64,000 nt of DNA from Candidatus Nitrosocosmicus oleophilus (GTDB lineage: Archaea > Thermoproteota > Nitrososphaeria > Nitrososphaerales > Nitrososphaeraceae): positions 992,001 to 1,056,000 of the forward strand of contig NZ_CP012850.1 in the NCBI RefSeq assembly GCF_000802205.1. Reading direction: 5' to 3'. Positions 17,998-23,934 of the stretch are shown here, one piece after another. The translations under genes were made by a program, and so were the position numbers. Under the pieces are notes generated by a model. It did not search any database. It had not been told where the DNA came from and saw only the letters and a program-made list of their open reading frames with translations. Within the stretch, counting starts at the first letter, position 1. Each line of letters opens with the position of its first letter.

Positions 17998-18756
17998 ATG
18001 TTTAAAGTTACTCTGCCCAATGGTCGTACTATTGTACCTGCCTTAGTTGTTGTAGATATGCAAAATGGTTTCGTATCAAAGGGAGGATCTTATGATATAA
18101 TAGGATATAACACAGCCTTATATAGGGAAGTAATTCCAAAAATTAAAGATTCAATAGAATTCTGCAGAAGTATGGGTATTCCTGTCTTTTACACCGAGGC
18201 AGTGAAGGAGGAGAGTGGCATAGATATTCTTACAAACGTACATAATATCTTACCAAAATCAAGACAGGAGAGGTTGAAAGTACCTATCTGTGTTAGAGGT
18301 ACATGGGATGGATTAACAATCGATGAACTAAAACCGGATAAGAAAGATCCTGTAGTTATCAAAAGAAGGGATTCTGCTTTCCAGGATACAGATTTCAGAA
18401 TTATGCTTCAGAGTCAAAGTATTAATTTTTTGATATTTACTGGGATTGATACTTCTATTTGTGTAGAGACCTCATTAAGGGAAGGATTTAACATAGGTTA
18501 CGATGTAGCAATAATATCTGATGCTACGGCATCCGGAGATAAGAGACACTACGAAACAACACTAGAAAGGGTAAGAGATTACTATGGAATAGTAATGGAT
18601 ACAGAGAAGTTTAAAGAAGTTATTGGCAAACTGGATAAGATGCGAAAAGGTGAAGCCAAGGCCTTTGTGGGGTCACAAGAAGAAGCGAAAGCCTGGTTAG
18701 AGGAATTTAATTTACTAGACCCTAGGGGATTTCCTTCTGAACAAGTTAACCTTTAG
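17998..18756 (+). CDS. Isochorismatase-family cysteine hydrolase
   Basis: Cytosolic hydrolase of the isochorismatase/nicotinamidase superfamily. The catalytic triad is visible: Asp20 in VVVDMQNGF, Lys122 in PVVIKRRDSAF and Cys155 in GIDTSICVETSLREG, with a cis-peptide-type segment just before the Cys. Length 252 is a little above usual because of a C-terminal helical extension (EAKAFVGSQEEAKAWLEEF). Related archaeal enzymes act on amides or ureido compounds; substrate not determined. Standalone; start ATG 17998. Confidence 0.85.
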   Translation: MFKVTLPNGRTIVPALVVVDMQNGFVSKGGSYDIIGYNTALYREVIPKIKDSIEFCRSMGIPVFYTEAVKEESGIDILTNVHNILPKSRQERLKVPICVRGTWDGLTIDELKPDKKDPVVIKRRDSAFQDTDFRIMLQSQSINFLIFTGIDTSICVETSLREGFNIGYDVAIISDATASGDKRHYETTLERVRDYYGIVMDTEKFKEVIGKLDKMRKGEAKAFVGSQEEAKAWLEEFNLLDPRGFPSEQVNL

Positions 18757-20520: not shown

Positions 20521-20580
20521 TTATTTTCAGAAACTTTAAATTTTCGATTTCAATGTGTTACAATAACCTTATCAGTGATG
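20521..20580 (+). repeat. Duplicated 60-base promoter/start segment (copy 2)
   Basis: The copy that leads into the cyclase gene; ends exactly at the GTG-ATG start codons. See 17478-17537. Confidence 0.8.
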
Positions 20581-21834
20581 AGATATATAATATCTGAATT
20601 ATTGATATCTAAGATAGAGAATAATAATGATAAAAAGAATCGTGTTCAGTCAAAACTAATTCTAGTTAAAGAGCTAAATGAAGTACTTTCTATTGAAAAT
20701 GCAGCAACACTTAGAATAGCTTCCCGAATAGACAAAACTCCAATTCGAGGGTTAAAGCAGGTATTAAGAAGGCATCTTAAAGTAACAAATATTCAAAAGA
20801 TCAGACTTCGAGATATAATAAGCCAATTTGGAGAAAAACCCACAGATAAAAAGACCGACTTGTTATCATTATTCGTAACTACTAATGTAAACCCAACACA
20901 CTCTGAAATCAATCTTTCAGAGAATTCAAAAATAGAAGAACAGAAGAAGGATTTAAAACATTCTTTACCAGAGGACTATGAAATCATACAACTTAGACAA
21001 GATTTTGCGATAAATCATGGTGAATTAAGGGCGTACGAATCATTGATAGAGAACATGCAAAAGATTGACATTCCAAATAAACAAAAGAATTTGTCTTTAC
21101 TCGAAAAGAGTATGAAGGAAGAAGAATTGATGGTTTATTGGTACAAAACCCATACACCTTTGATACTTGATAACCTTTGGCCAAAGGTAATTCATTCTAC
21201 TGTGAGACGTGGTCAAAACTTTCTCCTTAGCCATGTCGGCACAAAGATCCCAATAATAATCATATACGCTGATCTAGTTGGTTCAACGAAGATGAGTATG
21301 ACCTTACCCATTGATAATCTTGTTTCTATTGTCCGGATTTTTGATTATCATATCTCAAACGTTGTAGATACTTTAGGTGGGTATGTCTTAAAATATGCTG
21401 GGGATGCAGTGATCTCTTTTTTTCCAAGTCACATTGATAATCAGAACAAATATTCTGCTTCAGATACAGCAATCGAATCTGGGAAATTAATGATAAAGTC
21501 GATCCAAGAGGAAGTGAATTCATTTATGCATAAAATATACAAGTTTCCAGAGCTTTCCGTCAAAATAGGGATAGATGCGGGAGAAAACGCAATTGTTCAG
21601 TTCGGATATGATCAACGCTCACCTATTGACATATTAGGATATGGTATGAATGTAGCATCGAAAATAATGTCAATAACAAGTCCAAACAAAGTGTCCATCG
21701 GGGAGAATATATATAAATCACTGGATCCTGATTTACAGAACGAATTTCACGAACTAACGATACCTAATGAGCGATGGAAATATGTGAACTATGGTACTAA
21801 AAAGCCATACAAATTATACACATCCAATACGTAG
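20575..21834 (+). CDS. DUF892 ferritin-like domain fused to class III nucleotidyl cyclase
   Basis: Two domains. Residues about 25-195 match the four-helix ferritin-like DUF892 (YciE/YciF) family: LVKELNEVLSIENAATLRIA, GLKQVLRRHLKVTNIQKIRL, NHGELRAYESLIENM and LLEKSMKEEELMVYWYKTH, with Glu41, His67, Glu150 and Glu183 at metal-type positions; the usual HLEET of helix B reads HLKVT, so one ligand is lost. Residues 225-415 are an adenylate/guanylate cyclase catalytic domain: YADLVGST (Asp233) and KYAGDAVISFF (Asp277) are the metal aspartates, GYGMNVASK holds Asn359 and Lys363 where Arg is usual. No membrane helix, so it is cytosolic. It would turn a redox or iron signal into cAMP-like messenger (inference). 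Start GTG 20575 or ATG 20578. Confidence 0.8.
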   Translation: MMRYIISELLISKIENNNDKKNRVQSKLILVKELNEVLSIENAATLRIASRIDKTPIRGLKQVLRRHLKVTNIQKIRLRDIISQFGEKPTDKKTDLLSLFVTTNVNPTHSEINLSENSKIEEQKKDLKHSLPEDYEIIQLRQDFAINHGELRAYESLIENMQKIDIPNKQKNLSLLEKSMKEEELMVYWYKTHTPLILDNLWPKVIHSTVRRGQNFLLSHVGTKIPIIIIYADLVGSTKMSMTLPIDNLVSIVRIFDYHISNVVDTLGGYVLKYAGDAVISFFPSHIDNQNKYSASDTAIESGKLMIKSIQEEVNSFMHKIYKFPELSVKIGIDAGENAIVQFGYDQRSPIDILGYGMNVASKIMSITSPNKVSIGENIYKSLDPDLQNEFHELTIPNERWKYVNYGTKKPYKLYTSNT

Positions 21835-21912: not shown

Positions 21913-21922
21913 GGGGGGGGGG
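21913..21922 (+). repeat. Homopolymer of ten G
   Basis: Ten consecutive G in an intergenic region of about 30% GC, followed by TCGGACTG. It is likely length-variable by slippage; no gene spans it. The rest of 21835-22232 holds nothing I recognise. Confidence 0.7.
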
Positions 21923-22935: not shown

Positions 22936-23934
22936 ATGGGAAAGATTCTATTTGGAGTTCACTTGCCAGTTATGGGGTTTGATAAAACTAACCATGAGAA
23001 GAAAGGAATAGACGAATCGCCTAATACACGAGAACAGATATTATCTATTATAAAAAAGGCCGAACTTCTTGGATATGATTCATTAAGTGTAAATGATCAC
23101 ATCGTTTTTAGAACTAGCTGGTTAGATTCATTAAGTGTATTGTCTGTAGCAGCTGCAGTAACCGACAAGATAAAACTTGGGACTTCAATACTGAGTATAG
23201 TTGTAAGAACTCCTGTAATTTGTGCCAATGCTCTATCAGCCATAGACGTACTATCATCAGGACGCTTATTTGCAGCAGGAGTAGGACCTGGTTCACATAA
23301 AGGCGACTATGACGTATGTGGAATTCCTTTTGATCAGAGATGGAGTAGATTCGAAGAGGGATTAGAAATTTTGTATAAACTTTGGGATTATACACACGCA
23401 GAACAAAATTATGTATTAGATAAAGTAGATTATAATGGCAAACATTAGAAATTAGAGAAAGTATTTCTTGCACCTAAACCATATCAAAGACCTCATCCTC
23501 CTATTTTCATAGGAACTTGGGGATCATCAGAAGTAGGTCTAAAAAGAGTAGCAAAATATGGTGATGGTTGGATGGCATCTGCCTATAATATTACACCAGA
23601 TGAGTTCAAAGAAAAATGGGATATACTTTTATCGTATAGAAAAAGATTAGGTAAAGATGCTGAATTATTTGAAAATTCCATTATGTCGATGTTTGGATAC
23701 ATTGATGATGACAAATACAAAGTTAGAAAAACGGTAAAAGATATTCTATCTCCTGCATTGGGAAGACCTGTAGAGCAGTTAGAAGATTCACTACTTTTTG
23801 GCTCTATCGAAGAATGCATCCAAAAGATAAATGCTTTTTATGAAGCTGGAGTCAAACGAATACATTTTTGGCCCATAAGTGATTTTGAAGAACAGATCGA
23901 AATTTTTAAGAAAGACATAGCTTGTAACTATTAG
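22936..23934 (+). pseudogene. LLM-class flavin/F420 oxidoreductase interrupted by one TAG
   Basis: A luciferase-like monooxygenase fold enzyme, 332 codons, broken by an in-frame TAG at 23446-23448. Reading through gives an unbroken family match: SLSVNDHIVFRTSWLDSLSV, ATVTDKIKLG-type block, ALSAIDVLSSGRLFAAGVGP, then NGKH-stop-KLEKVFLAPKP, PPIFIGTWGSSEVGLKR and YGDGWMAS. Family members usually have Tyr or Phe at the stop position, so a single TAT/TAC to TAG change explains it. The rest of the frame has no other lesion, so inactivation is recent, or it is a sequencing error or read-through. Cofactor (F420 or FMN) not determined. ATG 22936; also ATG 22922 nearby. Confidence 0.85.

Follow-up and report, generated by a model that had tools for sequence, protein, structure and literature searches.

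The window, by which we mean the whole 64,000-nucleotide stretch of Candidatus Nitrosocosmicus oleophilus DNA analyzed here, carries a gene that joins a ferritin-like DUF892 domain to a class III nucleotidyl cyclase:

20575..21834, + strand: DUF892-class III cyclase fusion gene, 419 aa (open reading frame, Pfam domains, orthologous fusions)

The frame is uninterrupted for 419 codons, from a GTG at 20575 (or an ATG at 20578) to the stop codon ending at 21834, and is located at G000:C1:1012575 in the host genome (G000), which is archaeal and consists of a single contig of 3.43 Mb. Over its first 27 residues the protein diverges freely from its counterpart in genome G003, so the true start perhaps lies slightly downstream. 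The first-pass annotation of this DNA had placed a DUF892 domain and a nucleotidyl cyclase in one open reading frame, and both indeed score above the curated Pfam cut-offs: DUF892 (PF05974; cut-off 23.7 bits) with 28.6 bits in the whole protein and 31.9 bits in the N-terminal 205 residues, and Guanylate_cyc (cut-off 21.9 bits) with 38 bits over residues 227-391. The DUF892 match spans residues 29-103, i.e., helices A and B only; four other fused proteins score 28.5-38.5 bits against the same family. With a highest 19-residue Kyte-Doolittle mean of 1.5, the protein is likely to be cytosolic, as had been proposed. It contains no cysteine.

The N-terminal half comprises the following features:

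20656..21189, + strand: DUF892 (YciE/YciF) ferritin-like four-helix domain, residues 28-205 (Pfam PF05974, PDB profile match, AlphaFold2, Foldseek)
20635..20736, + strand: helix A, residues 21-54, with conserved E41 (AlphaFold2; E41 in 26/26 relatives)
20746..20826, + strand: helix B, residues 58-84, with H67 and V70 (AlphaFold2; E70 in 20/26 relatives)
20968..21063, + strand: helix C, residues 132-163, with N147 and E150 (AlphaFold2; E147 in 22/25 relatives)
21079..21228, + strand: helix D, residues 169-218, with E182/E183; candidate signaling helix into the cyclase (AlphaFold2)

AlphaFold2 modeling of this domain from 12 sequences gave four long helices at a mean pLDDT of 80.7, and the DUF892 structures 3hiu, 3ogh, and 2gyq were the top Foldseek matches of the model in the PDB. 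The DUF892 structures 7tmv, 4eru, and 2gs4 came next, the target TM scores of the DUF892 matches ranging from 0.72 to 0.85; bacterioferritins and Dps proteins were intermixed behind the top DUF892 structures. A profile built from fused and stand-alone sequences recovered every one of the six solved DUF892 proteins and, beyond these, only a marginal bacterioferritin. Stand-alone DUF892 proteins of the Nitrososphaeraceae align across residues ~17-208, with identities of 35-43% for the closest. The four-helix DUF892 pattern read earlier from the sequence thus reappears in both the profile match and the predicted structure, in which a four-helix ferritin-like fold spans the whole domain with DUF892 as its nearest relative. 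Helix D extends beyond the bundle, reaching residue 218 in the models of both the whole protein and the N-terminal domain; AlphaFold2 is confident to about residue 200 and less so beyond.

The remainder of the protein is the cyclase:

21193..21825, + strand: class III nucleotidyl cyclase domain, residues 207-417 (Pfam PF00211; PDB CyaC/CyaB/Cya2; Foldseek)
21271..21273, + strand: first metal Asp, D233 (in every homologue covering the position)
21391..21405, + strand: K273, the adenine-specifying Lys, to D277, the second metal Asp (homologue alignment)
21628..21630, + strand: D352, the adenine-specifying Asp, in the motif PIDILG (homologue alignment)
21649..21663, + strand: N359 to K363, the transition-state Asn and the Lys in the Arg position (Lys in 28/28 homologues covering it)

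In phmmer searches the protein matched CyaC (E 6e-9), CyaB, and other class III cyclases, and Foldseek searches with the whole model returned class III cyclases at E <0.001, although this half of the model is of low confidence. With only five sequences covering it, its pLDDT lies mostly in the range 30-60, and no structural detail has been drawn from it. Both metal Asp residues attributed to the domain are present (D233 and D277), and its assignment to class III is borne out by Pfam and by similarity to solved cyclases. Among 29 distinct homologous cyclases, the metal Asp pair and the Lys/Asp pair are invariant wherever covered, while the transition-state Asn is sometimes Ser; all fused proteins covering these positions retain D233, K273, D277, D352, and N359. 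Since both pairs are kept, we predict that the enzyme is an adenylate cyclase. The presence of Lys at position 363, where the transition-state Arg is expected, is confirmed. It had been suggested that it may tune or weaken catalysis; because all 28 homologues that reach this position have Lys, the substitution is a property of the clade and no loss special to this protein.

The fusion has a narrow distribution. Apart from the host genome, full fusions occur in G013, which has two copies (94 and 65% identity), and in G003 (80%). G082, of another genus, holds a fusion of about 60% identity (59%) that a contig end truncates. The G078 gene, from a third genus, joins helices C and D to the cyclase; helices A and B are missing, and it was for that reason rejected as a full fusion. 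The G007 copy has two internal TGA stops and lacks helices A and B, G083 and G023 contain fragments, and G084 has a piece at a contig end. Our survey of the order confines the fusion to a few Nitrososphaeraceae among about 400 genomes; no further example was found in these or in 398 genomes of the phylum, and none outside the Nitrososphaeraceae. Plasmid records gave no match over most of the query, the matches listed being to the cyclase only; bacterial chromosomes were covered by one conserved-peptide scan of genome contigs. The host genome has no DUF892 domain besides the fused one.

In the cyclase tree the fused sequences form one clade (support 94/94), and in the DUF892 tree they do so again (93/97), with the G078 half-fusion as their sister (100/97). 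The branching orders of the two trees are compatible, and the fused sequences are nested among those of Nitrososphaeraceae. That both halves give concordant single clades indicates that the fusion arose once. The narrow, patchy distribution and the decayed or truncated copies (G007, G078, G083, G023) indicate in turn that the gene is dispensable. Upstream of the G078 half-fusion, in another frame (about 5310-5420 of L055, on G078:C137), we noted the peptide KVLVPIDGSEPSFHAA, which by eye resembles the beginning of a universal stress protein and suggests that the N-terminal half of that gene may have been replaced by recombination.

Between the host genome and G003, dN/dS is 0.04 for helices C and D, 0.06 for the cyclase, 0.16 for helices A and B, and 0.43 for the loop at residues 99-130; these are rough values, synonymous divergence being high in some comparisons. 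They indicate purifying selection on the DUF892 and cyclase halves alike. The remnants in several genomes might be taken as signs of an assembly or annotation artefact, or of a chance fusion in decay. The likelihood of this is negligible: an orthologous fusion is present in independently assembled genomes (one complete, plus public Nitrosocosmicus records), the trees agree, and selection is purifying, so that the orthologues refute the idea. It is also highly improbable that the cyclase is dead or makes another product, as Lys363 in place of the catalytic Arg might suggest. Few of the predicted archaeal cyclases belong to class III, and most archaea probably rely on another, unknown class for cAMP (PMC8646023), which would fit such a reading; the Lys shared by all 28 homologues, found alongside the other catalytic residues, and the low dN/dS of the domain speak against it.

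Operon context was rejected as a clue to the stimulus, since the fusion loci share no neighbors except an isochorismatase-family gene. This gene adjoins the G078 half-fusion (L055:4444-5208); in the window it precedes the fusion by about 1.8 kb (17998-18756; 58% identical to the G078 gene), and it is also found beside the 94% orthologue. No iron or peroxide genes were found in a conserved neighborhood. Shortly downstream of the fusion gene, an AT-rich stretch is interrupted by a run of ten G residues (21913-21922). Further on, a luciferase-like monooxygenase seems to be spread over two open reading frames (22936-23448 and 23572-23934, + strand), probably a broken gene, with Pfam support for its first half; the 94% relative likewise has just a short frame matching the second half.

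A possible recipient of the cyclic nucleotide was sought among PF00027 proteins. The sole such protein of the host genome (G000:C1:775585-775827; L075:1324-3045, a 574-codon frame) combines an N-terminal cyclic-nucleotide-binding domain with a pyridine nucleotide-disulphide oxidoreductase resembling thioredoxin reductase. PF00027 frames of similar length are present in several relatives. In the other fusion genomes checked, PF00027 is absent (G003) or limited to a sub-threshold fragment (G013), and this oxidoreductase was therefore rejected as the cAMP effector.

The polar positions of the bundle were compared with DUF892 rows shorter than 320 codons, i.e., stand-alone proteins and two short remnants of fused genes. 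Conservation in these is high for E41 (26/26), H67 (24/26), and E70 (20/26) in helices A and B and for E147 (22/25), E150 (24/25), E182 (23/24), and E183 (21/24) in helices C and D. From the ferritin-like fold and the alignment we infer that these carboxylate and His positions are metal ligands. The PDB title of 3OGH refers to a di-iron four-helix superfamily, proposed metal pockets have been reported for YciF (PMC6727835), and DUF892 proteins expressed in E. coli sequester iron (PMC5126674). The window protein retains E41, H67, E150, E182, and E183 and has lost E70 (to Val) and E147 (to Asn), leaving the full ligand set of helices A-D incomplete. Loss of the helix-B Glu had been described, correctly, from the motif HLKVT (residues 67-71), and it is lineage-specific: of the five fused proteins with a whole domain, three have Val and two have Glu at this position. 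The helix-C loss had been missed and is the broader of the two, E147 being absent from all five (Asn in four, Lys in one). E41 is Thr in one of the five, whereas E150, E182, and E183 are invariant, and Y154 is likewise kept in every intact fused domain. The half-fusion of G078, sister to all of the fused sequences, has E147. The simplest order of events would be loss of E147 after the G078 lineage split off, followed by loss of E70 in the window lineage or of E41 in the second copy of G013.

With two conserved Glu positions lost, a classical di-iron oxidase role for the fused domain is unlikely; a single-metal site, a site for another ligand, and a scaffold remain as candidate roles. In a protein whose translation is free of cysteine, a thiol peroxide switch is excluded. 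The sensor of iron, oxygen, or peroxide envisaged in the first-pass annotation thus keeps its place among the possibilities, in weakened form. In such a sensor the bundle would still bind iron or another metal, and through it the cyclase would respond to iron, oxygen, or peroxide. We consider this doubtful. The iron sequestration by related proteins and the five ligand positions that remain are in its favor, and the oxidoreductase fused to the only PF00027 domain of the host would be a conceivable redox output; that protein is, however, not co-conserved with the fusion, no conserved neighborhood offers anything related to iron or peroxide, the fusion protein has no thiol, and ligand loss spreads along the fusion clade. 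Only tentatively might one suppose that the carboxylate bundle now switches an archaeal adenylate cyclase under the control of a metal or of redox state; losing two ligands would then have turned an oxidase into a sensor. If this were true, it would link the metal or oxygen status of the cytosol directly to cAMP in ammonia-oxidizing archaea.

The reading that we prefer, and to which we give an even chance, is that of a soluble homodimeric class III adenylate cyclase in which the DUF892 bundle acts as an N-terminal input and dimerization module. Class III cyclases act as dimers, in which two domains must lie next to each other. YciE and YciF are dimeric as well (PMC3843698), and helix D (residues 169-218) would pass unbroken from the bundle toward the first cyclase strand, which together would provide a plain route from the bundle to the cyclase geometry. 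If a metal or another ligand bound to the bundle, or if its packing changed, the two cyclase domains would shift relative to each other, and the rate of cAMP synthesis would change accordingly. A conserved helical segment joining sensors to effectors, including receptor cyclases, is a known theme (PMC1592074). The ancestral carboxylate site would have been eroded stepwise after the fusion, with E147 gone from all whole-domain fused proteins and E70 from the sub-clade of the window, and this makes a repurposed sensor more likely than an iron oxidase or store.

The dimeric state of DUF892 structures would also suit a bundle that senses nothing and serves only to keep the cyclase dimeric or in an assembly. 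The very strong conservation of the helix C/D core, while ligand positions drift, agrees with such a scaffold, as do the other N-terminal regions found in most cyclases of the family. We think it unlikely, as E150, E182/E183, and Y154 are kept in all intact fused domains, where a scaffold has no obvious need of them.

Compared with known proteins, the bundle shares its four-helix fold and HMM score with YciE (3OGH), YciF (2GS4), XCC3681 (3HIU), and YcfI (2GYQ), as well as the helix-A Glu, helix-B His, second helix-C Glu, and helix-D Glu pair. Unlike them, it is without the Glu of HLEET in helix B and the first Glu of ExxE in helix C, and it is fused to a cyclase, whereas the DUF892 members compared here mostly stand alone, with lengths of about 160-250 aa. 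The cyclase has two metal Asp and the transition-state Asn in common with the adenylate cyclases CyaC (1WC0) and P. aeruginosa CyaB (3R5G) and with the guanylyl cyclase Cya2 (2W01), and its Lys/Asp adenine pair is as in adenylate cyclases. It differs from the matched solved class III cyclases in the Lys at the transition-state Arg position and in the ferritin-like N-terminal domain, which none of them possesses. Stand-alone Nitrososphaeraceae cyclases (for example G000:C1:39645-40418 and G022:C177) are 46-56% identical in the catalytic domain, share its key residues, Lys363 included, and have short unrelated N-terminal regions where the fusion has DUF892. Weak alignments from residue 131 or 160 raised the possibility that helices C and D persist in such cyclases, which was rejected on account of those N-termini.

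Mycobacterial Rv1264 (1Y10) was among the Foldseek matches of the whole model. In this soluble cyclase, an N-terminal helical domain governs activity via a helical linker. The two proteins thus share a soluble cyclase with an N-terminal helical domain and are set apart by the pH response described for the regulatory domain of Rv1264, which to our knowledge has no ferritin-like character. Within the open-access literature searched, which leaves out most subscription journals, no paper was found that joins a DUF892 or ferritin-like domain to a nucleotidyl cyclase, in keeping with the earlier view that the pairing is undescribed. The novelty is in the architecture; both halves belong to known families.

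Archaeal cAMP signaling is largely unexplored, and few of the cyclases predicted in archaea are of class III (PMC8646023). The fusion provides a cytosolic class III cyclase with a recognizable input domain in an ammonia oxidizer, its hosts being a few soil ammonia-oxidizing archaea, and would represent a ferritin-like domain used as a signaling module after partial loss of its presumed metal ligands. There are 12 class III cyclase genes in the host genome. Two loci (G000:C1:661352-661828 and 698840-699364; L079 and L081) have the class III cyclase followed by a C-terminal response-regulator receiver domain, an unusual order that Pfam confirms; L078 and L085 probably show the same arrangement, to judge by sequence only.
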